Origin: a virus
Virus record (IMG/VR): IMGVR_UViG_3300037520_000542
Location: 1-60,354 of that record
Direction: 5' to 3' (one strand)
DNA: 60,354 nucleotides
The notes beneath the pieces are model-generated. The model made no database searches, had not been told where the DNA came from, and saw only the letters and a list, made by a program, of their open reading frames with translations. A program made the position numbers and the translations under genes. This document shows, piece after piece, positions 47,530-60,354 of this stretch. How positions within the stretch are numbered: the stretch's first letter is position 1; every line of letters begins with the position of its first letter.

Positions 47530-48072
47530 GTGGCCCGCCAGCGTGCAAGGATGCACCTGACAGAGGCACAACAACTGCTGGCCGAAGAGGCTATGGCTGT
47601 CGTGCCAAAAGCCATCATCGCCTTTCGCTGTCGATACCCGTCACTGCGGAAGCCGCTGCGACAGATCGACTCCACGAGCGTGGCCTATCTCGCCATCTGC
47701 CGTGCCGCCACGACGTACAACCCGGACGTGAGCAAGGTCACGACCTACTTCTCGATGGCGATTCGCAACGCCCTGCTCAAGGAGATCGACCGCAATCGCA
47801 GGGCACGGTACGACTCGCCGGACAGGGTGCCGATGGAGTTGGCGGAGGCTCTCGCCATTGCACCGCATAGCATGGCAACGAAACTCCAGACTGCCATCGC
47901 ACGCCTGCCCGGCAAGTACCGGAAACTGATTCACATGCGGTACTACAAGGGGCTGAGCCTGCGGGAGATTGGCGAACACGCACGCTGTGACCCACGCACC
48001 ATTAGGCGGAGACTCGCCGCCGCTTTGGAGGTGCTTGGAACTCTTTTGGGAAGCGAGCCGCTGCTGCCTTGA
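47530..48072 (+). CDS. Sigma-70-family transcription factor (180 aa)
   Basis: Region 2-like core at about residues 50-92 (AYLAICRAATTYNPDVSKVT, then TYFSMAIRNALLKEIDRNRR) and region 4 at about 118-170 (LQTAIARLPGKYRKLIHMRY, then LSLREIGEHARCDPRTIRRR) are both visible. Together they make a minimal sigma factor that could bind host core RNA polymerase and redirect it to phage promoters. The size resembles T4 gp55. No promoter upstream is clear. GTG start at 47530 is weakly supported. The 3' end overlaps the convergent serine recombinase by 71 bp. Confidence 0.85.
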   Translation: MARQRARMHLTEAQQLLAEEAMAVVPKAIIAFRCRYPSLRKPLRQIDSTSVAYLAICRAATTYNPDVSKVTTYFSMAIRNALLKEIDRNRRARYDSPDRVPMELAEALAIAPHSMATKLQTAIARLPGKYRKLIHMRYYKGLSLREIGEHARCDPRTIRRRLAAALEVLGTLLGSEPLLP

Positions 48073-48739
48073 GGGCACGGGTGATGGAGTTGATGTTCCA
48101 TCGCTTCCCGTTGGTGCGCCGCTCTCCCCAGAACGCCAGCGTGATCCGCTCCAGACTCTTGCCATCACTCCGCATGGCGACCATGCGTTCCACCTGAGCC
48201 CGCTCGTACGGGTCCGGCAGGTAGTAGGAGTCCTTCTTGGTGCCGATCTTCTTCCAGCCGATGGGGGCATGGGGGTTGATGGGCTTGCCGCTTCGCCGCT
48301 TCTGGCCCAGACCGTTGCGGGTGCGCTCCCGGATGAACTCTCGCTCCAGTTCTGCGAACGCCGCCATGATGGTGAACACGCACCGGCCAATGGGCGTGCC
48401 GCTGTCGAGCCCGATGTCGAGGGACGTGAACGACACGCCCTTCGCCTGCAACAGCATCATCGTGTGGACGAAGTCGTATGACGAGCGGAACGCACGGTCG
48501 AGTTTCGCCCACACGATCCTGTCTCCGGGCTGCACGAGAGCCCATAGCCCCCGCCCCTTGTCCCGCTCAAACATCTGCGTGCTGCCAGAGGTGGCGGCGT
48601 CGTACATCCAGCCGCCGTACTCGTAGCCCTGCGGCTTGAGCGAGCGGTCAACGTACTCCTCGCAGGCAGAACGCTGGGCATCTTCCGTGACCGCCTGCTT
48701 GTCGGTCGAGGCCCGTCCGTAGCAATAAACAGTAGGCAT
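48002..48739 (-). CDS. Serine recombinase (resolvase/invertase family)
   Basis: 245 aa. The N-terminal catalytic domain has YGRAST with nucleophile Ser11, VWAKLDRAFRS (conserved Arg), and FAELEREFIRERTR, the E-helix of the family. The C-terminal 80 residues include RITLAFWGERRTNGKRWNIN and SITRALKAAAARF, an HTH-like part. It is longer than simple resolvases and shorter than large serine integrases. RBS AGGAG precedes the ATG. It could invert or excise a phage segment, or resolve dimers. Presence together with the tyrosine integrase is notable. Confidence 0.88.
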   Translation of the reverse strand: MPTVYCYGRASTDKQAVTEDAQRSACEEYVDRSLKPQGYEYGGWMYDAATSGSTQMFERDKGRGLWALVQPGDRIVWAKLDRAFRSSYDFVHTMMLLQAKGVSFTSLDIGLDSGTPIGRCVFTIMAAFAELEREFIRERTRNGLGQKRRSGKPINPHAPIGWKKIGTKKDSYYLPDPYERAQVERMVAMRSDGKSLERITLAFWGERRTNGKRWNINSITRALKAAAARFPKEFQAPPKRRRVSA

Positions 48740-49897: not shown

Positions 49898-51358
49898 TCA
49901 CGCCTCCTGCGTGTTGAGGACAACGGTGCGGCACCAAGACGGGATTGCCTTGTGCCACTGCGATCCGACCCTGCCCGTGTATGCCACGACGACACGGGCA
50001 CGGGGCTTCTCGCTCCGCCAATGCGTCTCGGCGTCGGTGATGAGGACGATGGAGTCAGGCCGGTCGGCCTTGTCCACCTCCGCAACGGCGGTCGCCATGT
50101 CGGTGCCACCGCCGCCGTGCCAGTCGAACGTGCGGGCGTTGGTCACGGTGGCGTGCGACTGCACCTTCGTGTCGGCGCAGTACACCTTGACCCTGCCCAA
50201 CTTCCGCAGCCCCTGAGCGATCACCGACAACGCACGGGCGTGGATGTCGGTGGTCATCATGGACGCACTCGTGTCCACGATCACGACAGCGTGCGGCTGC
50301 ACCGTGATGCGACCGTGCAGCAGCGGCTGGTCATCGCCGGGCGGCTGCTTCTTGGATCGCCTGCGGTGCGAGAAGTCCCGCCCGCCGACAGGCGATGCCA
50401 CGCTGGTGCAGACGGCAGACCGCAGTTGGGCGAACGGGTCCGGCGTCGGGTGGAGCCGGGCCTTGATCGCCGCCTTGATGCTGCCGGGAACCGAGCCGGG
50501 ATTGTCGGACTCGTACTTCTCGACAGCCGCTGCGGCTATGTCCTGACCGTACGTTTCCCACGAGCCGTCGCTTTCGACTTCGTACCTGCGGGGGACGCCG
50601 TCCGCACACGAGCCGCCCGAGCCGGGCGAGCATGGGCTGCGTCCAGCAGGGCCGTCGTCATGTCCAGCAGCCCCGTTCCCGTTGGCTTGCCCGTTGGTGG
50701 AGTCGTCGTCGCCCCCTTCGCCAGCGCCTCCCTGCGAATCGCCTTCGCCATCTTCGGGTTCGCCATCACCATCACCTCCCCGTCCGCCAGTGCCCCTGTC
50801 TCCACCAGCGTCATCTTCACCGTCCCCGTCATTGCCTTGCGAGTCATCGTCGCTCTCCTGCTGCTGGGTGTTGCTGCCGCTCTCGTCCTGCGGCGGCTTG
50901 GGAAGCCGGTCAAGGATGAGCCTGTAGTATTCCTGCATCGACTTGTTCGCCGGGAAGTCGAGCGTAATCCCCATCGAGGGAACTTGACACCCGAGATGCA
51001 CGGCACCGTCTGGTCGCAGGTGACGCATGTGGGCGAGCGTCTGCTCGATCACAAGGTCGGCTGCGAGGTTGAGGATGAACTGCTGCTGGGGCGTGGGGTT
51101 GGGCACCATCTCCCTTGCACGGGCATGATGCTCAAAGATGAGGTGCAGTACCTCGTGCGTGACGAGGTACGCCCCTTGATCCACGCCGATCTTGGAGATG
51201 AAGTTGGCATCCCAGTACAGGTTGCCAGCGTCATCGACCGCAGCGGTCCCGATGCCGGGAGTCTCACGCTCCCGGAGTGAGTAGATGTACGAGGCGAGGT
51301 ACGGGACGTACTCAAAGGTACGAACCCGTGCCTGTCCGAGCAGTTGTCGTGGGGTCAT
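49898..51358 (-). CDS. DUF2201-type zinc metallopeptidase-like / VWA protein
   Basis: 486 aa; ATG 51358 follows GGGAG. The N-terminal domain has HEVLHLIFEHH (HExxH at 68-72 plus His77), the putative metallopeptidase site. A disordered Asp/Gly/Gln-rich linker spans about 158-290. The C-terminal VWA-like domain carries the MIDAS residues VDTSASM (362-367), a GGGGTD (414-420) and LITDAE (439-444). This is the usual partner of MoxR-family AAA+ ATPases, which is encoded upstream with one gene between. Such pairs act in metal-cofactor assembly, protein maturation or stress; the Acidianus two-tailed virus also has a MoxR/VWA pair. Confidence 0.85.
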   Translation of the reverse strand: MTPRQLLGQARVRTFEYVPYLASYIYSLRERETPGIGTAAVDDAGNLYWDANFISKIGVDQGAYLVTHEVLHLIFEHHARAREMVPNPTPQQQFILNLAADLVIEQTLAHMRHLRPDGAVHLGCQVPSMGITLDFPANKSMQEYYRLILDRLPKPPQDESGSNTQQQESDDDSQGNDGDGEDDAGGDRGTGGRGGDGDGEPEDGEGDSQGGAGEGGDDDSTNGQANGNGAAGHDDGPAGRSPCSPGSGGSCADGVPRRYEVESDGSWETYGQDIAAAAVEKYESDNPGSVPGSIKAAIKARLHPTPDPFAQLRSAVCTSVASPVGGRDFSHRRRSKKQPPGDDQPLLHGRITVQPHAVVIVDTSASMMTTDIHARALSVIAQGLRKLGRVKVYCADTKVQSHATVTNARTFDWHGGGGTDMATAVAEVDKADRPDSIVLITDAETHWRSEKPRARVVVAYTGRVGSQWHKAIPSWCRTVVLNTQEA

Positions 51359-51570
51359 GTGTCTCTCCCGTGAGGGGGTTGGGGAATGTCGGCCCATGAA
51401 TCAACGTCGCTGAGGCGTCGATGCGTGGGCAAGTCGTCGGGGACAAAGTAGTCGCCGTTCCAGAGTGCGATCTGGACGTACCCGTGCGAGCGTGCCACGA
51501 GGTAGCGGCCGACCTTGATGGGGACTTTGCCGTAGTCGGGCTGAAAGAGATTCCAAATCATTTCTTGCAT
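51355..51570 (-). CDS. Hypothetical protein between the AAA+ and VWA genes (71 aa)
   Basis: ATG follows AGGAG. Segments GKVPIKVGRYLVARSHGYVQ and GDYFVPDDLPTHRRL suggest a small beta barrel. Start/stop overlap of four bases with the VWA gene suggests co-translation. It may be a substrate or accessory of the ATPase pair. Confidence 0.6.
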   Translation of the reverse strand: MQEMIWNLFQPDYGKVPIKVGRYLVARSHGYVQIALWNGDYFVPDDLPTHRRLSDVDSWADIPQPPHGRDT

Positions 51571-51589
51571 GCTCCTGTTTCCTGTGGGG

Positions 51590-52705
51590 TCACGACTGAA
51601 CCAGAGCCATCAACTTACCGAGTGTCTCCTTCGGCGGGGTCCAGCCATCGGGCCGCACGCCACCGTCCTTGACCGGCTTCCAGAAGGACTTGAACTGCAT
51701 GAGGAAGGACTCGATCTCGTGCGAGCCGACCTCGATGAACGCCTCAGCAGCCCGCGTCCACCGCTCCTTCGTCGGGTTGGCACGCAGGCACTTCACGATG
51801 CCGGTGAGCAGGCAGATGTTGGCGTCCGGCCTGTTCTCGTAGGTGTAGTTCACGCTGCCGGACAGGAACTCCTCCGGGTTGAGCAGGTCGAGTTTCTGTG
51901 CGTACTGGAGGAACATCGACGCATGCTCAGTGCCGACCGCACCCGCACACAGCGTGCGGTAGATGGGGTCTTTGCGTTCCTTCCGCCACTCATACCCGCA
52001 GGCTTCGGCCGCAGCACAGACCTTGACGAGGTACGTCCACGTTCGCGGGTTGGGAAACGAGAGCGTCTCGTCATCCTGCGGCAACTTCTCAAGGGCATCG
52101 GGTGCCGACCGAAGGAACGCCTCGACCAGCGACCCGAACTGCGGGAGCATGTCAGCCCAGTGATCGGGCACGACCGGAAAGGACGGTGCCGTCCACTCGC
52201 AGCCAGCCCGCAGGCCAGAGAACCAGTGTTCGCGATCCACCTCCCAGTCGAAGTGAACGAACCGCGACCGCATCGCAGGCGACAGCGGCACTGCGTTGGG
52301 GCACAGTTCGGGCGGGTTCATGGCACCCACCATGAGCGTGGATGCGGGCATCTGGTAGCCGCCGACACGACGTTCGGTGAGGACCGAGAGCAGGCCAGCC
52401 TGCGTGGCAGACGGGACGTTCGTCACCTCGTCCACCACAACGAGGGCACGACCGTCCTTCGTCTTGTCCCACAGTTCGGTGGGCAGCATGCGAACCACCC
52501 CAGCCTTGTGGTCGGGGGTGGGGTAGCCCGAGAAATCTTCGGGCAGGTGAGTGGCACCGAGCAGGGGGACGAACGTCCGCTCCAGTGCAGCACACAGTGC
52601 CTCCAGAGAGGACGACTTGCCGACGCCGGTGCCGCCGCGAAACAGGACGGGAGCCACCTGAAGGGCGAGGAAGCCGGGCGTGTTTCCAAGATTGACGCGA
52701 GCCAT
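51590..52705 (-). CDS. MoxR-type AAA+ ATPase
   Basis: 371 aa from ATG 52705, preceded by GAGGAGC. Walker A GGTGVGKS (24-31), Walker B LVVVDEV (88-94), sensor 1 GAMNPPE (127-133) and an arginine finger in LSPAMRSRFVHF are clear. The order and the helix-2 insert-like LPEDFSGYPTPDHKAG place it in the MoxR/dynein-like clade. It is the unfoldase/chaperone partner of the VWA protein downstream. The C-terminal half is helical. Confidence 0.88.
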   Translation of the reverse strand: MARVNLGNTPGFLALQVAPVLFRGGTGVGKSSSLEALCAALERTFVPLLGATHLPEDFSGYPTPDHKAGVVRMLPTELWDKTKDGRALVVVDEVTNVPSATQAGLLSVLTERRVGGYQMPASTLMVGAMNPPELCPNAVPLSPAMRSRFVHFDWEVDREHWFSGLRAGCEWTAPSFPVVPDHWADMLPQFGSLVEAFLRSAPDALEKLPQDDETLSFPNPRTWTYLVKVCAAAEACGYEWRKERKDPIYRTLCAGAVGTEHASMFLQYAQKLDLLNPEEFLSGSVNYTYENRPDANICLLTGIVKCLRANPTKERWTRAAEAFIEVGSHEIESFLMQFKSFWKPVKDGGVRPDGWTPPKETLGKLMALVQS

Positions 52706-52740: not shown

Positions 52741-52798
52741 CAGGGGGAGGGGCAGCACGATGCTACCCCTTCCCCCTGAGAACCAGACTCCGCAGCGG
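52741..52798 (-). repeat. Gene-end module L: 13-bp repeat plus hairpin
   Basis: GACTCCGCAGCGG at 52786-52798 lies about 18 bases after the stop of the 120-aa HTH-like gene, with a partial duplication of GGGGAAAAC in between. CAGGGGGAGGGG (52741-52752) can pair with CCCCTTCCCCCTG (52766-52778). This module separates the HTH-like gene from the MoxR ATPase. Confidence 0.85.
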
Positions 52799-52815
52799 GA
52801 AAACTGCGGGGAAAA

Positions 52816-53178
52816 CTAGAAGCCGGTGCCGACGCAGACCGTGAACACCAGCGGCTGCTTGACGGGTGGCGGTGCCTGCTCGACGGGCTCGACCGCCACC
52901 GCATCCACGACGACGGGCTTGGGCACGACGAGGGCCGTTGACTTGGACTCCTCGATGCCCATGAGCCGCCGTCCCATGCGGGACTTCTTCCTCATGCCCT
53001 TGAGCAGGGGAAGAATGACGCCCCGCTTGGCGAGCGTCTCGATCCTGCCGTGCAGGGTGGAGATGTGCAGCCCTGTCACTTGGCAGAACTCACTGACCGT
53101 GATGCCGCTCTCCACTGCGTCGTGGTAGTCGCGGAGAAAACCGGAAACGTCAATCGTCAGGCGGCGCAACTTTCGCAT
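52816..53178 (-). CDS. Helix-turn-helix-like small protein (120 aa)
   Basis: RBS AAGGAG. The first half reads like a DNA-binding helix set: SEFCQVTGLHISTLHGRIETL is a good helix-turn-helix. Lys/Arg-rich RKKSRMGRR follows. The C-terminal 45 residues are a Val/Pro/Glu-rich tail. It may regulate the leftward operon. Not identified further. Confidence 0.6.
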   Translation of the reverse strand: MRKLRRLTIDVSGFLRDYHDAVESGITVSEFCQVTGLHISTLHGRIETLAKRGVILPLLKGMRKKSRMGRRLMGIEESKSTALVVPKPVVVDAVAVEPVEQAPPPVKQPLVFTVCVGTGF

Positions 53179-53207
53179 CGCAACTCTCCTTGTTGGGTGG
53201 GGAATCC

Positions 53208-54077
53208 TCAGACACTGGCAGACAGCAGGCGATGGACGGCGACCGCCTGCTTGGCCTGCTCGATGGCGTCGGTCAACTCGGGCATGTCCACGCCCATGAG
53301 TTGCCGATACTCATTGACCATTGACAGCAGCCGATTGGCACGACCGAGCCTCACCTTGATCGACCGCTCGCTGAACCCGTCCGTTGCGTTGGCGATGTCG
53401 TCCATGATCTCCGCCACGCCAGCCTTCACTGTCTCCCGCACCTTGCTCAGCACGTCGCCTGCCGTCTCCGGGTTGGCGTCGATGTCGAACGTGGTGAGGG
53501 TGAACAGCGGGCCACGCCCGTCGTCACGCAGGATGTCAGCGAACCTGCGGTACTTGTCGAGGTGCGACTCGCCAAGAAACCACACGCCGCCACCCTCCGC
53601 CATCGGCACCGCCTTCCACGATTGCAGGATGCGGACGGCAGTCCTGCTCACGATGGGGGCGGGCAGGTAGTCACGCAACTGCACGACGGCGGACTGAAGG
53701 GCGGGCTCCACGAACGCACTGTTGGCGTCGTGGTTGTGGGCCAGCACCGTCACCTTCCAGTTCGTGTCGATGGTCGCACTGAACAGGTGGTGGTACTCGT
53801 TGCGGTCGCCATTGGGCACGACCCGCACGCACTCAAAGTCGTTGCCATCGATGTGCTTTGCACTGATCGGCTGCTTCCGTCGCTTGCCGAACAGGCCGAT
53901 GCCGACGCCGTGCATGGCAAGGCGAAGGGTGGTCGTGACCGGCGGCTGAGTGGGCACGAACTTGCTGGCGTCAACGGCATCCGCCGCACGCTGCAACGTG
54001 TCACGCAGTGCAGTGCGGGTGTTGAGGATGCAGATGCCGCCGCAGCGGGAGCCAACGGACAGTGTCGTCGGGGTCAT
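53208..54077 (-). CDS. Conserved hypothetical, possibly DUF6744-like (289 aa)
   Basis: RBS AAGGAG. The N-terminus reads TRTALRDTLQRAADAVDASK, then FVPTQPPVTTTLRLAM, and the middle FECVRVVPNGDRNEYHHLFS. The last 120 residues are helical (DVLSKVRETVKAGVAEIMDD). I believe this resembles a DUF6744-type family seen in aquatic bacteria and phages, but I cannot verify it. Possibly a nucleoid or recombination-associated protein. Confidence 0.5.
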   Translation of the reverse strand: MTPTTLSVGSRCGGICILNTRTALRDTLQRAADAVDASKFVPTQPPVTTTLRLAMHGVGIGLFGKRRKQPISAKHIDGNDFECVRVVPNGDRNEYHHLFSATIDTNWKVTVLAHNHDANSAFVEPALQSAVVQLRDYLPAPIVSRTAVRILQSWKAVPMAEGGGVWFLGESHLDKYRRFADILRDDGRGPLFTLTTFDIDANPETAGDVLSKVRETVKAGVAEIMDDIANATDGFSERSIKVRLGRANRLLSMVNEYRQLMGVDMPELTDAIEQAKQAVAVHRLLSASV

Positions 54078-54089
54078 GGGTTGCTCCTT

Positions 54090-54266
54090 TCAGTGAGCGA
54101 TGAGTTGGGTGTGGGCCTTGACGAACCTGCGTTGCAGCGTGGTGAACGCCGCTGCCTGCTCTGGTTCATCGAACTGCTCACGGTCCTCCGCACTCTCGTG
54201 CAGTGCCGTGATGATGAGGTCGAGTTCCATCGGCGTGAGTGTCACGGTAGTAGTCGGGTGTGGCAT
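54090..54266 (-). CDS. Small hypothetical protein (58 aa)
   Basis: ATG 54266 follows AAAGGA; a sigma-70-like promoter lies immediately upstream, giving a very short leader. The product is mostly helical (TPMELDLIITALHESAEDRE) and acidic. It is the first gene of a possible transcription unit leading to the MoxR/VWA genes. Confidence 0.6.
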   Translation of the reverse strand: MPHPTTTVTLTPMELDLIITALHESAEDREQFDEPEQAAAFTTLQRRFVKAHTQLIAH

Positions 54267-54283
54267 ACCCGTCCTTTCGTGTG

Positions 54284-54311
54284 AGTGTACTAATGTGCAT
54301 GCGTTAGTCAA
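54284..54311 (-). promoter_or_regulatory. Sigma-70-like promoter for the 54.3-48.0 kb leftward unit
   Basis: Minus-strand TTGACT (54311-54306), 16-bp spacer, TACACT (54289-54284). Identical -10 and spacing to the ssb promoter. Start would be near 54277, eleven bases before the ATG at 54266. Confidence 0.55.
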
Positions 54312-54462
54312 TGGGCGTGACCGGCAGCGTGCCGTGCTGCCAGTCGTCGTCCGGGTCGGCGGCGACTCCCAAGTACACGACCACCTCCCCCGTTTCGCAC
54401 TCGTCGAACATTGCGTCCGGGAAGGTGGAGAGAACGTGATCCATCAGTTCCTTGAGCGTCAT
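54304..54462 (-). CDS. Small acidic protein (52 aa)
   Basis: ATG 54462 follows AAGGAG at a good distance. Sequence LKELMDHVLSTFPDAMFDEC, then GEVVVYLGVAADPDD, is coherent and acidic, so I judge it real. It lies wholly inside the frame of the LexA-like gene in another phase. Confidence 0.55.
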   Translation of the reverse strand: MTLKELMDHVLSTFPDAMFDECETGEVVVYLGVAADPDDDWQHGTLPVTPID

Positions 54463-54688
54463 CGCTCTGCTCCTTGAGGTAAGACTTCCAGTCGAACAGG
54501 ACGGCACGACTGCCGACTCGCTCGATGATTCCCTTGCGTTCCAGTCTGTTCATCACGACCGTGACATAGCCTGCCGACCGCCAGCCGAAGGCCGTTGCGA
54601 TGTCCCGGTAGGACGGCTGCACGCCGCACAACTCGATGTCGCTGGCGATAAGGTGAAGGACTCGCCACTCCGTGTCGGTCAGTTGCAT
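54308..54688 (-). CDS. LexA-like winged-helix DNA-binding protein (126 aa, tail doubtful)
   Basis: ATG 54688 follows GGAGG. Residues 1-72 (LTDTEWRVLHLIASDIELCG, VQPSYRDIATAFGWRSAGYV, VMNRLERKGIIERV) match a LexA N-terminal-type winged helix. No peptidase domain follows. The last 50 residues are Arg/Gly-rich and overlap the 52-aa gene out of frame, so the true end may have been lost to an indel: a TGA in the +2 frame would coincide with the next ATG. It is the best candidate for a phage repressor or early regulator. Confidence 0.7.
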   Translation of the reverse strand: MQLTDTEWRVLHLIASDIELCGVQPSYRDIATAFGWRSAGYVTVVMNRLERKGIIERVGSRAVLFDWKSYLKEQSDDAQGTDGSRSLHLPGRNVRRVRNGGGGRVLGSRRRPGRRLAARHAAGHAH

Positions 54689-54912
54689 GCGTCACCTCCG
54701 TAGCCCGGCAGTCCGATGGCGGTGGCAACACGGCAGAACGCCATGCGTGCAGTGACTAGGTAGTCCGTTGGGATCATGTACTCCCCGTCGCTGGCGGAAA
54801 TGTCCAGCGGGTTGTCGGTCAGGAAAGCGAACGGCTCCAGTGCCTCAAGCAGCAGCCGAACGTGCGAGTCAGTGGCGGCTGGCGACGGGTACTTAGCGTC
54901 GGGGTATGGCAT
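54679..54912 (-). CDS. Hypothetical protein (77 aa)
   Basis: RBS AAAGGAG. Segments DSHVRLLLEALEPFAFLTDN and MIPTDYLVTARMAFCRVATA are helical. The stop overlaps the LexA-like gene start. No family known. Confidence 0.6.
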   Translation of the reverse strand: MPYPDAKYPSPAATDSHVRLLLEALEPFAFLTDNPLDISASDGEYMIPTDYLVTARMAFCRVATAIGLPGYGGDACN

Positions 54913-54915
54913 GGG

Positions 54916-54990
54916 TCAGGCTCCTTTGCGAATGAGTTCAAGCACGATGCGAACAATCAACAGAACCAGTTCCATCTGGTCGGGGTTCAT
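54916..54990 (-). CDS. Tiny hydrophobic protein (24 aa)
   Basis: An ATG with a strong AGGAGG site encodes a 24-residue helix, MELVLLIVRIVLELIRK, that may insert into membrane. Its stop is just before the next gene's ATG. It could be a genuine microprotein or a translational coupler. Confidence 0.45.
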   Translation of the reverse strand: MNPDQMELVLLIVRIVLELIRKGA

Positions 54991-55016
54991 GTCACGCCTC
55001 CTTGCGTGGGGTGGTG

Positions 55017-55055
55017 GGCCAGTGGGCTCATCCCACTAGCCAGACTCCGCAGCGG
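55017..55055 (-). repeat. Gene-end module K: 13-bp repeat plus hairpin
   Basis: GACTCCGCAGCGG at 55043-55055, six bases after the TAG of the 123-aa gene. AGTGGG (55021-55026) pairs with CCCACT (55032-55037) within a GGC/GCC-flanked hairpin. Confidence 0.9.
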
Positions 55056-55061
55056 GAAAAA

Positions 55062-55433
55062 CTAGACCGACACGCCGAGCAGGCGCGTCATGTCGGGGTG
55101 GTGGGCCAGCCCGAACTGAGCGAACTTTTGCAGTTCAAATCGGCCCACTCGGACCATCTCCTGCGTCGGCAGCGGGCGTGCGTAGTTCCTTTGATCCCAT
55201 CGCCTGCGACGATGGCTGAACGGCAGGTCAGCGCACTCGTACCACTTGCCGTCGCAGCACACGAACAACGTGCAGGGGTATGCGTCGTGCCCTCGCCGTC
55301 TCATCTCTGAGTACACGACGTAGAGTTCGGTGCCGTCGTCGGCTGTCCTCCACTTGCCGTGTAGCGTGGACGCACGGAAGGGCTTGCACTCCTGCACCAT
55401 CTTGCGGCAGGTGCGAATCGAAACACTTGGCAT
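55062..55433 (-). CDS. Hypothetical protein, paralogue of the 58280 gene (123 aa)
   Basis: RBS AAAGGACG. It shares with the gene at 57942-58280 the pattern WRTADDGTELYVVYS, then LFVCCDGKWYE and a terminal LLGVSV (the other has WETASDGSRMYVVYS, LFVWHDGVWYE and LLAVSAG). The order is conserved although overall identity is modest. The two are clear relatives, probably by duplication. The function is unknown. Confidence 0.7.
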   Translation of the reverse strand: MPSVSIRTCRKMVQECKPFRASTLHGKWRTADDGTELYVVYSEMRRRGHDAYPCTLFVCCDGKWYECADLPFSHRRRRWDQRNYARPLPTQEMVRVGRFELQKFAQFGLAHHPDMTRLLGVSV

Positions 55434-55459
55434 GGGTCGTCCTTTCTTGTGATGGGTCC

Positions 55460-55511
55460 GGGTGGGTCAGGCTCACCGTGAGACTGGCCCACCCAACGGA
55501 CTCCGCAGCGG
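55460..55511 (-). repeat. Gene-end module J: 13-bp repeat plus hairpin
   Basis: GACTCCGCAGCGG at 55499-55511, five bases after the TGA of the clamp-like gene. GGGTGGG (55460-55466) pairs with CCCACCC (55488-55494), and CTCA/TGAG pair inside. Confidence 0.9.
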
Positions 55512-55516
55512 GGAAA

Positions 55517-56338
55517 TCAAGTGACCGGAGCGAGGTTGCCACCGACGATGCCGATGGCGTCCGGCTCAGCGATGGCGACTGCGACCTGCTCGTCGTCCAT
55601 CATCTCGGGCACTGGGGCAGGGGCGATCACCTTGCCCGTCGTCACGTTGACCGTCTCGCCCGGAACACGGCGACCGTCCGGGTAGACGGTCGTGTTCTGC
55701 ACGATCATCTCCCGCTTCTTCTTGGGCTTGGCCTCCGCCTGCTCAGCCGGTGCCTCTCCGGGTCGGGGCGGGAACGTGTATCGCTTCCCGTCGTCCGCCG
55801 CACGCGGCATGATCGCCATGCGTGCGACGTGCCCCTCGTTGCTACGGCAGGTGGCGAACACGCACGACTGCTGGTCTTTCACGAACAGCGTGATGCCTTT
55901 CGTCTCGCTGCCCTCGCTCATCGTCGCCGCCAAGTCCGCCAACTTGCGGAGCAGGGCACCGTCGAGTTTGACGCAGGCGTAGCCGTCCGTCCCGTTGTCG
56001 TGAACGGCATTGAACACGTCCTCGATGCGGGGGAACCGGCCCTCGACCAGAGTCGCCTTCGACTCTGTGCCGCCGTGACGCAGCGTCGAGCCGTCGAACT
56101 CGACCGACTTCTTGAACGCAGCCGCAGGCGGTGAGGAGATCGCCTTCCCGTCCACGATGGCGGATACGGGCTTCTCATCCTCGTCTGGGTAGTAGACGTT
56201 GGCGAGGATGCGACCGTCTGTCGCCGTGAGTTGGGCAGTCTTGCCATCGCTGAGACACTGCACTCCGCCCAGTGCGTATCGGACGGCGTCGCTGTCGCAG
56301 CACTTGGCGAGTTGCTTGATGAACGCAGGAATCCTCAT
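55517..56338 (-). CDS. Sliding-clamp-like (DnaN/beta fold) protein candidate (273 aa)
   Basis: ATG 56338 follows GGAGG. The segment SDAVRYALGGVQCLSDGKTA, then QLTATDGRILANVYY, matches the start of beta-clamp-like domains (ATDGRRLA). A second and third repeat are less clear (STLRHGGTESKATLVEGRFP). If correct it would be a phage clamp or clamp decoy binding host polymerase. About 273 residues is shorter than the usual 360, so two of three clamp domains may be present. Confidence 0.5.
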   Translation of the reverse strand: MRIPAFIKQLAKCCDSDAVRYALGGVQCLSDGKTAQLTATDGRILANVYYPDEDEKPVSAIVDGKAISSPPAAAFKKSVEFDGSTLRHGGTESKATLVEGRFPRIEDVFNAVHDNGTDGYACVKLDGALLRKLADLAATMSEGSETKGITLFVKDQQSCVFATCRSNEGHVARMAIMPRAADDGKRYTFPPRPGEAPAEQAEAKPKKKREMIVQNTTVYPDGRRVPGETVNVTTGKVIAPAPVPEMMDDEQVAVAIAEPDAIGIVGGNLAPVT

Positions 56339-56351
56339 GTCATCCTCCGGG

Positions 56352-56384
56352 AAAAAAGAAAGCCGATGGCACCATGCCACCGGC
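56352..56384 (-). terminator. Intrinsic terminator before the clamp-like gene
   Basis: Minus strand: GCCGG/TGGCA arm (56384-56375) pairs with TGCCA/CGGC arm (56371-56362), followed by TTTCTTTTTT (56361-56352). The most classical intrinsic terminator of the operon. It belongs to module I. Confidence 0.75.
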
Positions 56385-56396
56385 CACTACCGAACA

Positions 56397-56409
56397 GACT
56401 CCGCAGCGG
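56397..56409 (-). repeat. 13-bp repeat, module I
   Basis: GACTCCGCAGCGG, seven bases after the stop of the acidic repeat protein and directly before the terminator at 56352-56384. Confidence 0.9.
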
Positions 56410-56415
56410 GGAAAC

Positions 56416-57090
56416 TCAGGACTTCACGATGGACTTGGCGAAGCACTTGAGCAGGGCCTTCGCAAGTTCCTCGTAGTCCAGAACGTCCGCATCCCAGTCG
56501 ATGTTCTCCGCCACCTTCTCGATCACACTGTCGATGTCGATGTCGTCCTTCGCCAGTTCGGCGGCACGCTCGACCACGTCGTCGCTGTCGATGTTTGCCG
56601 ACACGTTCTGTGCAATGTCGTCCGCGTCGATGTTCTCTGCCACCTTCTCAGCGATGTCGCTCTCGCTGATGTTGCAGGACATCATCTCCGCCGTCCGCTC
56701 CACCACCTTGTCCTCGTCCACCTCGATCTTCTCGGCACACTGCTCGCACACCTGCCCCATGTCGATCTCATCCACGACGCGGGACACGATGTCGTCCATG
56801 TCGATGTTGCGGGTCACGTTGCGGGCAATCTCGGACGTGTCGATGTCCACCCTCTCCGCCACCCTCTCCGCCACGTCATCGAGGTCGATGCTGTACGCAA
56901 CGTCCTGCTGTATCTCCTTCGCAACCGTGCGGAGTTGCGCGGTGGTCAGGGACGCAGCGACCGCCGCACTGTTGGGGCCGCATGACGCACGCACACGGTC
57001 AATCACCTCCGCCCAGAAGGCTGGGCTGTCCATGAAGCGGGCAACGGCACGATCAACGACCGACTCGATCCAGTTGGTGAAGAAACGCAT
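56416..57090 (-). CDS. Acidic 13-residue-repeat protein (224 aa)
   Basis: RBS AAGGAG. After an N-terminal helical region, residues about 80-215 consist of repeated units near 13 residues of the form I-D-x-D-D-I/V-x-x-x-V-A-x-N/E. Examples are IDLDDVAERVAER, IDMDDIVSRVVDE, IDADDIAQNVSAN and IDIDSVIEKVAEN. At least eight units are visible, with two longer spacings. The part is very acidic and probably helical, and could be an interaction scaffold or DNA-mimic surface. No known family assigned. Confidence 0.75.
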   Translation of the reverse strand: MRFFTNWIESVVDRAVARFMDSPAFWAEVIDRVRASCGPNSAAVAASLTTAQLRTVAKEIQQDVAYSIDLDDVAERVAERVDIDTSEIARNVTRNIDMDDIVSRVVDEIDMGQVCEQCAEKIEVDEDKVVERTAEMMSCNISESDIAEKVAENIDADDIAQNVSANIDSDDVVERAAELAKDDIDIDSVIEKVAENIDWDADVLDYEELAKALLKCFAKSIVKS

Positions 57091-57119
57091 GACGAAACTC
57101 CTTATGTAGAAACGCAAAC

Positions 57120-57168
57120 GGCCAGCCGCACAGTGCGACTGGCCTCCAGAAACAAGACTCCGCAGCGG
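57120..57168 (-). repeat. Gene-end module H: 13-bp repeat plus hairpin
   Basis: GACTCCGCAGCGG at 57156-57168, five bases after the TGA of the 149-aa gene. GGCCAG and GCAC (57120-57131) pair with GTGC and CTGGCC (57133-57144). The hairpin is nearly identical in sequence to that of module F. Confidence 0.9.
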
Positions 57169-57173
57169 GGAAA

Positions 57174-57623
57174 TCACCGCTTGCGGGGATCTTCCTCAAG
57201 CCACGCCAGATAGTCCTCGTACACGGGCGGCTCGATGCCTTCCGTCGGGAGGCCGTCGCCGTAGTACCGGCACGCGAAGGGCTGTCCCTTCGTGCGGCTC
57301 GTGCCCTCGTCGCCGTGAACGGCAACGTGATCGAGGTCGATCACCCTGCCGCTGCCGTCGTAGTGACGGGCGTCCTCCGGGTAATCGTCAAGGTCGCTGT
57401 CCGGGACATGGATGAGGTGCCCGTACTGCTCGTTGTCGGAGAACTCCTCGATGGCGTCCTCGACACTGCCTGCCTCGACTACCAGAAACAGCGGCCAGTA
57501 CGAGCCGCCGATCTCCAGCAGCCATGTCCGCCCGAACCAGCCTCCGGGATTGAGGGCGAGGGCGTCGATGTCGTGATCGCCCAGCCGCCCTTTTGCCCGC
57601 ACCTGCTGCACGCTTTCGCTCAT
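57174..57623 (-). CDS. Hypothetical acidic protein (149 aa)
   Basis: ATG 57623 follows AAGGAG. It has LNPGGWFGRTWLLEIGGSYW, then PLFLVVEAGSVEDAIEEFSD, a beta/alpha pattern, and later PEDARHYDGSGRVIDLDHV. An acidic C-terminus follows. Similar host-shutoff-sized proteins occur in many phages, but none is identified. Confidence 0.65.
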   Translation of the reverse strand: MSESVQQVRAKGRLGDHDIDALALNPGGWFGRTWLLEIGGSYWPLFLVVEAGSVEDAIEEFSDNEQYGHLIHVPDSDLDDYPEDARHYDGSGRVIDLDHVAVHGDEGTSRTKGQPFACRYYGDGLPTEGIEPPVYEDYLAWLEEDPRKR

Positions 57624-57702
57624 CGCCAATCTCCTTGTGCTTCTCGGCCTTGACCAGTGACCACCACTGGTCGTTCCACCGCTTCGCCTTCTCGCTCGCC
57701 AT
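57388..57702 (-). CDS. Possible small gene overlapping the 149-aa gene (104 aa, doubtful)
   Basis: Only the first 27 residues (MASEKAKRWNDQWWSLVKAE) lie outside the next gene; the rest is in another phase of it and Arg-rich. GGAGG lies upstream but very close. It may be a translated short protein or an artefact. Confidence 0.25.
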   Translation of the reverse strand: MASEKAKRWNDQWWSLVKAEKHKEIGDERKRAAGAGKRAAGRSRHRRPRPQSRRLVRADMAAGDRRLVLAAVSGSRGRQCRGRHRGVLRQRAVRAPHPCPGQRP

Positions 57703-57860
57703 CACGCCTCCGTTGCCGCGATCATGTCAGCAATCTCTCGCCGCTCGTGATCGTTGAGGGTACGAAGGTCGGCAACGAATCGAGTGACAGACGCTGCGCC
57801 CATGATGCGGGCGGCGTCAATCAGCCGGACGAACTTCAGCGTGTCATTGGTCGTGGACAT
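57702..57860 (-). CDS. Small helical protein (52 aa)
   Basis: RBS GAGGAG, seven bases before the ATG. Helical sequence KFVRLIDAARIMGAASVTRF, then LRTLNDHERREIADMI. It lies in the same cassette as the following two genes, with no repeat in between. Confidence 0.6.
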   Translation of the reverse strand: MSTTNDTLKFVRLIDAARIMGAASVTRFVADLRTLNDHERREIADMIAATEA

Positions 57861-57891
57861 GGGAACTCCTCAGTGACAGGGACAAGGGACG

Positions 57892-57936
57892 GGTGGCGGC
57901 AACGTGCCGACCACCGAGAGGCAGACTCCGCAGCGG
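57892..57936 (-). repeat. Gene-end module G: 13-bp repeat plus hairpin
   Basis: GACTCCGCAGCGG at 57924-57936, five bases after the stop of the 112-aa paralogue. GGTGG and GGCA (57892-57901) pair with TGCC and CCACC (57905-57915). Confidence 0.9.
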
Positions 57937-57941
57937 CGGAA

Positions 57942-58280
57942 TCAGCCAGCCGAGACAGCGAGCAGCCGCTGCACGCCCGGAAGGTGTTCGATGCCGTGAA
58001 GGATGAACGTCCTGAGGGCCAAGCCGAGAACCTTCACCGTGTCGCAACGCGGGTGGGCCTGCGAGCGGTGCTTGCTTGTGGTCACGCTGTAGCGGTCCTT
58101 GTTTTCGTACCACACGCCGTCGTGCCACACGAACAGCGGCCAGTGCGGGCCGTACGAATACACGACGTACATTCGTGAGCCGTCGCTGGCAGTCTCCCAT
58201 CGGGAGAACAGGTTGCCGTGACACTTGAACTCGGCAAGTGCCTTGACGTGCGGGAGGCAGGAAAAAGTGGGGATCTTCAT
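57942..58280 (-). CDS. Hypothetical protein, paralogue of the 55433 gene (112 aa)
   Basis: RBS GAAGGAG. Conserved with the 55062-55433 product in the order FSRWETASDGSRMYVVYS, PLFVWHDGVWYE and LLAVSAG. It is mostly beta, with aromatic residues. The two genes flank the same repeat/hairpin modules, so cassette duplication is likely. Confidence 0.7.
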   Translation of the reverse strand: MKIPTFSCLPHVKALAEFKCHGNLFSRWETASDGSRMYVVYSYGPHWPLFVWHDGVWYENKDRYSVTTSKHRSQAHPRCDTVKVLGLALRTFILHGIEHLPGVQRLLAVSAG

Positions 58281-58316
58281 GCGAATCTCCTTCGTGCATG
58301 GGTAGAAACGAAACGA

Positions 58317-58364
58317 GCCAGCCGCACAGTGCGACCGGCCTTCACCGAACAGACTCCGCAGCGG
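58317..58364 (-). repeat. Gene-end module F: 13-bp repeat plus hairpin
   Basis: GACTCCGCAGCGG at 58352-58364, three bases after the TGA of the 77-aa gene at 58368. The hairpin 58317-58339 shares the GCCGCACAGTGCGA core with module H. Confidence 0.9.
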
Positions 58365-58367
58365 GAA

Positions 58368-58601
58368 TCACTCGCTGTTTTTCGCGTCGGCTTCGGCCTC
58401 GTCCTCCGTGTCGAAGGGTCCGTGCGGGTCAGAGTCGGGCATGCAGCCGGGAAAGCACGCCCACCAGTACCATCCGGCGGGCACGGGATTGCCGTCCTCG
58501 TCCGCCCAGCAGTCGCCGTCCGCGACACGCTGGCCGTCGTGATAGAACACCTCAAACGAGCCGTGTTCCTGCCCGATCTCGTCAATGAACTGCCCGTACA
58601 T
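58368..58601 (-). CDS. Acidic small protein (77 aa)
   Basis: RBS GAGGAGC. Residues EVFYHDGQRVADGDCWADED, then GWYWWACFPGCMPD, show a compact Trp/Cys-rich beta fold with an acidic tail. No known family. Confidence 0.65.
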   Translation of the reverse strand: MYGQFIDEIGQEHGSFEVFYHDGQRVADGDCWADEDGNPVPAGWYWWACFPGCMPDSDPHGPFDTEDEAEADAKNSE

Positions 58602-58630
58602 GGCATCGCTCCTCGTGGGTGAAATGCGAC

Positions 58631-58686
58631 GGGGCCAGCCGCCACCGTGACGACTGGCCCCGTTCGCAATACGGACTCCGCAGCGG
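58631..58686 (-). repeat. Gene-end module E: 13-bp repeat plus hairpin
   Basis: GACTCCGCAGCGG at 58674-58686, four bases after the TGA of the gene at 58691. GGGGCCAG (58631-58638) pairs perfectly with CTGGCCCC (58654-58661). Confidence 0.9.
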
Positions 58687-58690
58687 TGAA

Positions 58691-58924
58691 TCACCGCAGA
58701 CTGCGACGAACACCGACCATCGGCGTGAGCATGGCGTCGATCTCGCGGTCGATCTCGACGTTGATGTCGGCGGACTCCTCCGCACGCTCGCGGGTTGCGA
58801 AGGGGCCGACCGGCATGGCGGCAGTGCGCACGTCCATGAAGTAGAAGCCTCCGTTGCCGGGAAACACGACGGCTTCCGGCTTGTTGCGGGTGTTGCGAAC
58901 GACGGACAGGTTGGGATCACGCAT
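58691..58924 (-). CDS. Hypothetical protein (77 aa)
   Basis: RBS AAGGAG. MRDPNLSVVRNTRNKPEAVV, then GPFATRERAEESADINVEID, suggests a small alpha/beta protein with an acidic helix. Unknown function. Confidence 0.65.
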   Translation of the reverse strand: MRDPNLSVVRNTRNKPEAVVFPGNGGFYFMDVRTAAMPVGPFATRERAEESADINVEIDREIDAMLTPMVGVRRSLR

Positions 58925-58959
58925 GGGAATCTCCTTCGGAACAGGGATAGAAACACAAA

Positions 58960-59051
58960 CGCCCACCGCGAAGTGCGATGGGCGAGAGCCTGCGAGTGCA
59001 GGATTGGGGGCTGGCTGGCAGCACAGCCCCGTATCCCAGACTCCGCAGCGG
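58960..59051 (-). repeat. Gene-end module D: 13-bp repeat plus hairpins
   Basis: GACTCCGCAGCGG at 59039-59051, five bases after the TGA of the 147-aa gene. CGCCCA and CGC (58960-58969) pair with GCG and TGGGCG (58975-58984), followed on the minus strand by a T-rich TTTGTGTTT. A second hairpin CCTGC/GCAGG lies at 58989-59002. Confidence 0.9.
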
Positions 59052-59056
59052 CGGAA

Positions 59057-59500
59057 TCAGCCGTTGAAGGCGTTGCGGACGGCGGTCCACATGGCCTTGC
59101 ACTCGTCGTCGTTACGGAACACTCCGTTGATGGCGGCGAGCATGTCCTTCATGCGGGCCTCGTCGCCCTTGTAGGCCCACGCGGAGAAGGGGCCGACCGT
59201 CACGGACACGCCGCTCTTGCCGTTCTTCTTCGCCACCCGGACGTTGACTTCCCACGCCTTGCGAACCTTCGCGGGCTTCTCGGCCTTCGGGGAGTCGATC
59301 ACGACCGTCGCGGGGGCGTCGGCCTTCGCAGCGGCGGCACGCTTGCGACCCTCCGCCATCTTGGCCTTCTGCTCGGGGCTGAGCGTCCGCTTGCCCTTCG
59401 CGGGGGCCTCGATAACCGCAGGGGCAGCGGCAGCGGTCTGGAACTTCATCGCCTCCGCGATACCGGCAGCGATCATGGAACGGATGTCAGAAGCAGTCAT
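59057..59500 (-). CDS. Ala/Lys-rich hypothetical protein (147 aa)
   Basis: RBS GAGGAG. N-terminal helix (SDIRSMIAAGIAEAMKFQ), then a basic Ala/Lys linker (GKRTLSPEQKAKMAEGRKRA) and a C-terminal domain with GVSVTVGPFSAWAYKGD and MWTAVRNAF. It may bind nucleic acid via the basic linker. No family known. Confidence 0.65.
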   Translation of the reverse strand: MTASDIRSMIAAGIAEAMKFQTAAAAPAVIEAPAKGKRTLSPEQKAKMAEGRKRAAAAKADAPATVVIDSPKAEKPAKVRKAWEVNVRVAKKNGKSGVSVTVGPFSAWAYKGDEARMKDMLAAINGVFRNDDECKAMWTAVRNAFNG

Positions 59501-59562
59501 GGCAAATCTCCTCAGAAACAGGGATAGAAACCGATCCCGACTCAACGTGAGTACGGGTGGAG

Positions 59563-59609
59563 GCGATGCCGCATGGGCCAGCATCGCTACCATCCAGACT
59601 CCGCAGCGG
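59563..59609 (-). repeat. Gene-end module C: 13-bp repeat plus hairpin
   Basis: GACTCCGCAGCGG at 59597-59609, four bases after the TGA of the 62-aa gene. GCGATGC (59563-59569) pairs with GCATCGC (59581-59587); another hairpin lies just before it (59536-59557). Confidence 0.9.
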
Positions 59610-59613
59610 CGAA

Positions 59614-59802
59614 TCACTCCACCAGCAGCACGGGCCACGCCGACTCCACGATCACTTCGCCGTCCGGGCCTTCCAGCGTGTAGACCTGCCAGCCATTGGC
59701 ACGAGCGTTGATCCACTCGCGGGCCTTACGCTCCGTGTCGAACGCGATGGCGTCACCGCAGTCGCCGCGTGAATCGCTCCAGAGGTAGGACACGATGAAC
59801 AT
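59614..59802 (-). CDS. Small hypothetical protein (62 aa)
   Basis: RBS GAGGAG. Compact beta/alpha sequence: MFIVSYLWSDSRGDCGDAIA, then TERKAREWINARANGWQVYT and EVIVESAWP. Possibly a small DNA- or protein-binding domain. Unknown. Confidence 0.65.
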   Translation of the reverse strand: MFIVSYLWSDSRGDCGDAIAFDTERKAREWINARANGWQVYTLEGPDGEVIVESAWPVLLVE

Positions 59803-59833
59803 GAGATGCTCCTCAGCATGAGACGCAGAACAC

Positions 59834-59876
59834 GGTGAGCCGAACGTCGGCCACCGAAAGACAGACTCCGCAGCGG
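59834..59876 (-). repeat. Gene-end module B: 13-bp repeat plus hairpin
   Basis: GACTCCGCAGCGG at 59864-59876, five bases after the TGA of the 71-aa gene. GGTG and GCCGA (59834-59843) pair with TCGGC and CACC (59847-59855). Confidence 0.9.
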
Positions 59877-59881
59877 TGAAA

Positions 59882-60097
59882 TCAGCCGAACGAGACTTGA
59901 TCGGCTTCGTGGATAGAGCCGTCCGGGCGGCGGATCGTGTGGCCGAACTCCCCGCTACGGCACAACTCACGAGCAGCATCCGAAGCGCTGTCGTAGTCGG
60001 GGAACGATTCCCGGCTGGTTTCGTAACGACGCTCCACCCAAGTGCCGTCGAACATTCGGTAGCCGGGAATCGTCCAGTTGTGTTCCAGAACCCACAT
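59882..60097 (-). CDS. First gene of the leftward operon (71 aa)
   Basis: ATG 60097 follows GAAAGGACGG, a leader also seen at two other genes of the operon. Contains WTIPGYRMFDGTWVERRYET, then DSASDAARELCRSGEFGHTI, a small alpha/beta pattern. Unknown function. Confidence 0.65.
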   Translation of the reverse strand: MWVLEHNWTIPGYRMFDGTWVERRYETSRESFPDYDSASDAARELCRSGEFGHTIRRPDGSIHEADQVSFG

Positions 60098-60125
60098 GCA
60101 GCACCGTCCTTTCGTGCCGGTCACT

Positions 60126-60178
60126 GGACGATCACATTTGCCGTCCGTCGTGCCGACACAATCCAGACTCCGCAGCGG
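60126..60178 (-). repeat. Leading 13-bp repeat, module A
   Basis: GACTCCGCAGCGG at 60166-60178, upstream of the first operon gene and not preceded by a stop codon in the usual place. A weak GGACG/CGTCC hairpin (60126-60146) lies between it and the gene. It may mark the operon leader or a lost gene. Confidence 0.8.
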
Positions 60179-60221: not shown

Positions 60222-60233
60222 GGACATAGTTCG
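60222..60233 (+). promoter_or_regulatory. Weak late-promoter-like element at the contig junction
   Basis: GGACATAGTTCG sits just before the possible GTG gene that begins in the repeat. It matches the GGACATAAATC family imperfectly. Confidence 0.2.
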
Positions 60234-60354
60234 TGGCCCGCCGCGAAGGCGGAATCCCGCTCTCGGTCGGTACCGTGAAGCGGAAACCCTTGCGGCGTAA
60301 GGATGGAACGCGGGGGATGAAGGAGCGGCCCCCGAAGCCCCCCACTCGCGCGCG
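60228..60354. repeat. Right copy of exact 127-bp terminal direct repeat
   Basis: Identical to 1-127. See the left copy for interpretation. Confidence 0.95.

Follow-up and report, generated by a model that had tools for sequence, protein, structure and literature searches.

There are 12 exact copies of the 13-bp sequence CCGCTGCGGAGTC in IMG/VR virus record IMGVR_UViG_3300037520_000542, a complete 60.4-kb podovirus-like phage record that is considered here over its full 60,354 nucleotides (the window), and all 12 reside on the minus strand. Each copy is part of a larger element that marks the start of the downstream transcription or translation unit, and this element is an oriented, repeated signal that is probably regulatory. 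Judging from sequence, we slightly favour the possibility that each copy is a single-box promoter specific to the phage. A candidate reader of the boxes is the extracytoplasmic function (ECF)-like sigma factor encoded by the same phage, to which we assign a little less than an even chance.

A repeated element at the starts of leftward units

By chance, 0.0076 exact copies of the 13-mer would be expected on both strands of the window, and beyond the 12 observed there are no further copies, either exact or with one mismatch. A first-pass annotation of this DNA had already described twelve 13-mers in one orientation with none elsewhere in the window, and all of this holds. The conserved unit exceeds 13 bp, as it also includes TG, a T at +17 and a pyrimidine-purine pair (Y-R) at +20/+21. 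The full element is CCGNTGCGGAGTCYG-N2-T-N2-YR, and its logo core CCGNTGCGGAGTCYG forms a continuous box of 15 bp (a signal of roughly 15 bases). The initiator-like Y-R pair, located 6 nucleotides past the end of the box, is present at 12 of 12 window sites and at 57 of 65 non-redundant sites, compared with a mean of 15.5 of 65 across offsets; T at +17 is likewise enriched in this non-redundant set. When scored by a 36-column matrix trained on other genomes and without the window, the 12 sites reach 27.7-41.2 bits, and the next best place reaches 9.2. A DNA palindrome, CCGCTGCGG, was considered and not kept because position 3 is free (C, A or G) and position 5 is C in the related genome G053.

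The boxes are located just past stop codons, as the first-pass annotation had stated, although its spacings of 3-7 and about 18 bases are revised to 3-6 nucleotides at 10 copies and 17 nucleotides at 52786. The copy at 60166 has no upstream gene. It is the first of the array and lies in a divergent control region where no gene on its strand precedes it, as is also the case in the relatives inspected. Start codons follow the 13-mers at distances of 54-114 nucleotides in the window. Up to the AAA ATPase gene, a box is present wherever two genes on its strand are separated by at least 73 nucleotides, and gaps of 37 nucleotides or fewer carry none; an apparent 192-nucleotide gap after 51590 contains a small open reading frame (ORF; 51355-51570). 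Across genome pairs, homology is found only downstream of the box in 230 cases, only upstream in 39 and on both sides in 98. Because the first copy lacks an upstream gene, boxes follow the gap rule and the leader is kept with the downstream gene, the element marks the starts of units, and not the ends of genes as first framed.

Of the informative pairs, 73% lose flanking homology at the box, compared with 8% at control 13-mers, which are mostly coding sequence, and thus ordinary gene-boundary mosaicism accounts for much of this signal. Such breaks would also be expected if the box were a boundary at which gene-plus-leader cassettes are exchanged, whether through homologous recombination or through the action of the serine recombinase encoded nearby (48002-48739), and near-copy leaders ahead of unrelated genes are compatible with this proposal. 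However, conserved gene order is largely stable among the genomes even though homology often breaks at the element, which speaks against the cassette-exchange function suggested by the first-pass annotation. In addition, the box is unlike the paired inverted half-sites of serine recombinases, and exchange would leave the Y-R pair, T at +17 and the covarying hairpins unexplained, so we regard this function as very improbable. An integron-like attC array was also rejected, given the stable gene order and the presence of the box on one side of the hairpin only. No integrase was found among the proteins searched, which did not cover the whole genome.

The element recurs in several copies, on one strand of an equivalent gene block, in at least 20 related phage contigs of IMG/VR, although several of these relatives are fragments. 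A 16-base version of the element has matches in 39 IMG/VR stretches. Scans of whole records yielded 17 with 5-11 exact copies, each set being confined to a single strand within one block, and the remaining scanned records have one copy each, which is the chance level. Additional element-bearing relatives were reached via the portal and the sigma factor. Thus, the element is not placed at random in related phages, an outcome that the first-pass annotation had raised, and there is no good box match on the opposite strand, nor any box in the structural block, in the genomes scanned.

These carriers are uncultured freshwater (lake) phages. Among named phages, the large tail-like protein has no match and the portal has one weak match (25% identity across 35% of the query), a near-absence indicating that the group is essentially uncultured, and none of 50,697 phage records was recognised as a close cultured member. 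In 257 Gb of genomes from bacteria and archaea, the extended pattern matches once, on a Gemmatimonadota contig of a metagenome-assembled genome, and this is probably a chance occurrence. A portal search of genome contigs for a host found nothing.

The box sequence varies in a concerted, genome-wide manner. It reads CCGATCCGGAGTC at six of six sites in G053 and chiefly CCGATGCGGAGTC in G039, nearly every site in G052 has CCGCTGCGGAGTC with a C after it, and a GGCGTC variant is present at part of the sites in G009. Variants of this kind point to a trans-acting reader that coevolves with the box. One possibility is that the reader is a repressor that blocks transcription, because the stoperators of Cluster A mycobacteriophages are also asymmetric 13-bp intergenic sites in one orientation, genome-specific variants would be natural for an operator, and helix-turn-helix (HTH) proteins are encoded within the block. 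In contrast to stoperators, the boxes have another sequence, occur only at the unit starts of one block, where their placement is strict, and are accompanied by hairpins and by initiator-like bases at a constant distance. They are absent from the structural block and the opposite strand, and the recognition-helix residues of the HTH protein F14 vary widely among genomes with an identical box. We therefore judge an operator to be improbable. Neither F14 nor a second HTH protein, F16, cleanly tracks the box variants.

Hairpin leaders

A stem-loop follows all 12 boxes of the window, mostly beginning at +20/+21 or a few nucleotides earlier, and these structures are more stable (mean z-score -3.05) than control segments (-0.6). 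Folding and sequence comparison bear out three earlier observations, namely a hairpin after each 13-mer, a T-run at one of them and two near copies, the last being the leaders of 57156 and 58352 (GGCCAGTCGCACTGTGCGGCTGGCC and GGCCGGTCGCACTGTGCGGCTGGCT). Otherwise, hairpin and loop sequences vary among the leaders of one genome, which indicates that the feature being kept is shape and not sequence. Triloops closed by an A-U pair are found in 28 of 71 non-redundant leaders but in 42 of 1500 control hairpins. The sense strand folds better than the antisense strand (p=0.004), whereas controls show no such difference. Furthermore, the leader of the AAA gene exhibits compensatory changes among 16 genomic loci, with five pairs supported by double changes. 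Certain copies have little or no hairpin, and there the start codon comes within 35-45 nucleotides. Rfam has no match within the array.

Hairpins that come after stop codons, some of which are terminator-like, might be taken as terminators or RNA-processing sites at gene ends. We view this as highly improbable, because a run of four T residues within 10 nucleotides follows only 1 of 154 hairpins, the first copy has no gene ahead of it and the leaders go with downstream genes. In the window, only the hairpin of 56397 has a good T-run. Intrinsic terminators, composed of a GC-rich hairpin and a T-run, were rejected on the same count.

A different proposal is that the box acts as RNA. In this bipartite leader, the box and a hairpin some 6-8 nucleotides downstream would be used by a phage protein to set antitermination, processing or translation individually for each gene. 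The presence of a linear box and then a hairpin in nearly all leaders, the excess of A-U-closed triloops, the compensatory changes and the strand difference in folding are all in its favour, and since selection clearly acts on the hairpins as RNA we consider it unlikely without dismissing it. The fixed Y-R pair and T at +17 better fit an initiation site, however, and loop sequences are unlike each other among the leaders of one genome. Moreover, some copies have scant or no hairpin and others lie within coding sequence, and 12 antitermination sites per block would be superfluous if antitermination is processive. The lambda nut site has the same layout of a linear conserved box (boxA), a short spacer and a hairpin (boxB), but the window elements differ from it in sequence, in being present in a dozen copies and in having variable loops and a fixed Y-R pair. 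The box has only CGCT in common with lambda boxA, and no N-like protein was found, though no search was aimed at one. Also rather unlikely is an extended form of this proposal, a phage-wide regulon of portable leaders, each with a 15-nucleotide box and an A-U-closed triloop hairpin. A phage protein would recognise both parts together and thereby switch a dozen messages simultaneously, and the modules would move between genes independently of coding sequences.

One leader of a related contig (L177, position 10148) is 92% identical to that of window copy 59039. The former precedes an amidoligase-like gene and the latter a small gene, which suggests that leaders are able to move between genes. 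In the leaders of four other relatives (L060, L180, L183 and L057), some hairpins carry tRNA T-arm-like loops (GGTTCGACTCC) below an acceptor-like stem. No tRNA was called in the window, and Rfam gave none at these T-arm-like leaders.

A candidate single-box promoter and its possible reader

With a fixed Y-R pair 6 nucleotides behind an invariant box, the unit starts have the layout of a single-box promoter. We propose that the box, in the arrangement CCGNTGCGGAGTCYG-N2-T-N2-Y(-1)R(+1), precedes each leftward transcription unit and that RNA polymerase would initiate at the purine 6 nucleotides past it. The mRNA 5′ end would then lie at, or just before, the stem-loop that precedes the ribosome-binding site, and the role of this 5′ hairpin would most likely be message stabilisation or regulation. 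By analogy with gp36 of phage phiEco32, the reader might be the host RNA polymerase together with the phage's own ECF-like sigma factor. The first-pass annotation rightly named this protein among its candidates: its sequence has Pfam and PDB matches, its structure model matches ECF sigma factors in the PDB and its region-2 segment TTYFSMAIRNALLKEIDRNRR hardly varies among relatives. The gene is conserved in records of sufficient length: of 18 that were checked, 15 carry it, and the other three are contigs of 17, 25 and 45 kb.

Other polymerases and promoters were also considered. No single-subunit RNA polymerase was recognised among the large window proteins with Pfam and PHROGs, and there is no motif-bearing candidate; promoters for a T7-like polymerase were therefore rejected. 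A PF00940 genome scan, whose control was silent, is at best weak evidence on this point. Sigma-70-like promoters in the region number 1, compared with 1.3 expected from shuffled sequences. No second box-like repeated motif was seen for the rightward cluster in the window, and the same search found repeated k-mers in four relatives.

In phiEco32, SU10 and 7-11, the phage ECF-type sigma factor (gp36) uses one box 6-8 nucleotides upstream of the start, and no -35 element is needed (PMC4281155, PMC4331800). The window phage resembles these three phages in encoding an ECF-type sigma factor and in having structural genes clustered on one strand and functional genes on the other, with a divergent control region. 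Its box ends 6 nucleotides before the conserved Y-R pair, a spacing that would fall within the range of phiEco32 and SU10 if transcription starts at that pair, and its portal weakly resembles that of SU10. However, the phiEco32 box is tAATGTATA, about six copies of it are experimentally supported rather than 12, and these drive late or middle genes including structural ones, whereas the window boxes are restricted to the leftward block and carry 5′ hairpin leaders. The element would work like a gp36-type promoter, but since its box has another sequence it is not classed as one.

Start-associated sequences (SAS) and extended SAS (ESAS) are repeats found near gene starts in Cluster K mycobacteriophages (PMC3203893, PMC11373665). 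SAS elements share with the boxes a 13-bp asymmetric sequence, many near-identical copies in a single orientation and a location upstream of gene starts in a non-structural block. They differ in sequence (GGGATAGGAGCCC) and in lying 3-9 bp from the start codon, whereas the window boxes lie 54-114 nucleotides away. ESAS elements contain putative promoters as well as inverted repeats and vary by subcluster. Their SigA-like -35 and -10 hexamers and recurring 15-17 bp inverted-repeat sequence have no counterpart at the window boxes, where each hairpin has its own sequence.

Several observations weigh against a promoter that is read by the sigma factor. The continuous 15-bp box without a clear -35 element would be unusual for an ECF sigma factor, and its variants are not obviously tracked by the sigma sequence. 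Indeed, the sigma factor of G053 is 84% identical to that of the window, yet the boxes of these two genomes are unlike at two positions. In phiEco32, host promoters serve the upstream part of the leftward block, whereas boxes occupy that part here. The shared triloop shape shows that RNA matters too. A few relatives have exact copies inside coding sequence, although copies so placed are easier to reconcile with a signal at the DNA level than with a leader element.

If the promoter proposal is correct, the transcription code of this freshwater phage group would comprise one box, one sigma factor and a dozen early units, with the box serving as a private start signal ahead of almost every early gene unit. 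An ECF-like sigma factor would here use a single-box promoter that is GC-rich and, at 15 bp, far longer than the 9-bp phiEco32 box. Such a code could be tested on synthetic DNA without the host, and the genome-specific variants would help to map how sigma factors and promoters coevolve and to construct orthogonal promoters. The hairpin leaders also bear on the role of repeated start-associated elements such as SAS and ESAS.

Feature coordinates and genome setting

Table 1. Boxes, leader hairpins and selected genes of the window. Box numbers follow the leftward direction; starts are predicted.
Feature	Position	Strand	Basis or remark
Box 1 (first of array, no upstream gene)	60166-60178	-	exact 13-mer, Y-R; start 60157
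Region upstream of box 1			divergent control region
Box 1 stem-loop	60112-60161	-	fold, z -3.9
Box 2	59864-59876	-	exact 13-mer, Y-R; start 59855
Box 2 hairpin	59833-59856	-	fold; triloop CGT closed by A-U
Box 3	59597-59609	-	exact 13-mer, Y-R; start 59588
Box 3 hairpin	59558-59592	-	fold
Box 4	59039-59051	-	exact 13-mer, Y-R; start 59030
Box 4 hairpin	59001-59036	-	fold
Box 5	58674-58686	-	exact 13-mer, Y-R; start 58665
Box 5 hairpin	58625-58668	-	z -6.1; 20 pairs, triloop CGG closed by A-U
Box 6	58352-58364	-	exact 13-mer, Y-R; start 58343
Box 6 hairpin	58316-58340	-	fold; near copy of 57120-57144
Box 7	57924-57936	-	exact 13-mer, Y-R; start 57915
Box 7 hairpin	57892-57915	-	fold; triloop CGT closed by A-U
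Box 8	57156-57168	-	exact 13-mer, Y-R; start 57147
Box 8 hairpin	57120-57144	-	fold
Box 9 (precedes clamp-like gene)	56397-56409	-	exact 13-mer, Y-R; start 56388
Box 9 hairpin	56361-56385	-	fold; sole good T-run
Box 10	55499-55511	-	exact 13-mer, Y-R; start 55490
Box 10 hairpin	55458-55496	-	fold
Box 11 (precedes multi-gene unit 54991-52816)	55043-55055	-	exact 13-mer, Y-R; start 55034
Box 11 hairpin	55018-55040	-	fold
Box 12 (precedes AAA ATPase gene)	52786-52798	-	exact 13-mer, Y-R; start 52777
Box 12 hairpin	52741-52778	-	z -5.3; covariation in orthologous leaders
Sliding-clamp-like protein gene (downstream of box 9)	55517-56338	-	phrog_947 1e-9
HTH protein, leftward block	54308-54688
HTH protein, leftward block	52816-53178
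AAA (MoxR-like) ATPase gene (downstream of box 12)	51590-52705	-	Pfam AAA_5 3.7e-8
Small ORF after 51590	51355-51570		relatives in 7 genomes
ECF-like sigma factor (candidate box reader)	47530-48072	+	Pfam Sigma70_r4_2 7.7e-10; model matches ECF sigmas

The record has identical 127-bp ends (1-127 and 60228-60354). These probably reflect a k-mer overlap from assembling a circular or permuted genome, and not a terminal repeat of biological origin. Its rightward cluster (about 211-48072) comprises structural, helicase and nuclease genes, and the leftward cluster (60097-48002) comprises small genes, the clamp, HTH proteins, AAA and VWA-like proteins and a serine recombinase. Between these divergent clusters, at the record ends, is a control region in which strongly conserved non-coding blocks, GGGAAAAAATCCAGGAGGGGAACGTAACT and GCGTTCCATCTATACGC, are present in the window and its relatives and are possibly early promoters or a replication origin. 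The terminase belongs to phrog_2, and the portal has a weak SU10/P22-like match.

The serine recombinase gene (minus strand; Pfam Resolvase 2.4e-31; relatives in seven fetched genomes) overlaps the sigma gene tail to tail. The minus-strand region 49898-52705 encodes the AAA ATPase and then a DUF2201 metallopeptidase/VWA-like protein; distant AAA relatives are found in about 260 phage records, many from 70-77 kb phages annotated with an ATPase. A further protein conserved in the block (F9, 53208-54077) folds well (predicted local distance difference test score 85), and a PDB search with it gave no useful match. There are two paralogous small proteins on the minus strand (57942-58280 and 55062-55433), each with its own box and leader.

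Most relatives carry, between the small genes and the clamp, a protein which we take to be amidoligase-like together with a glutamine-amidotransferase-like protein (L054:9276-11292). The window lacks both genes and has a repetitive 224-amino-acid protein (56416-57090) there instead. In relative G009 (L057:711-928, minus strand), a tRNA (Rfam 52 bits) is located beside a DUF3800-VIII RNA match with a score of 43.4 bits, which is above the gathering score.

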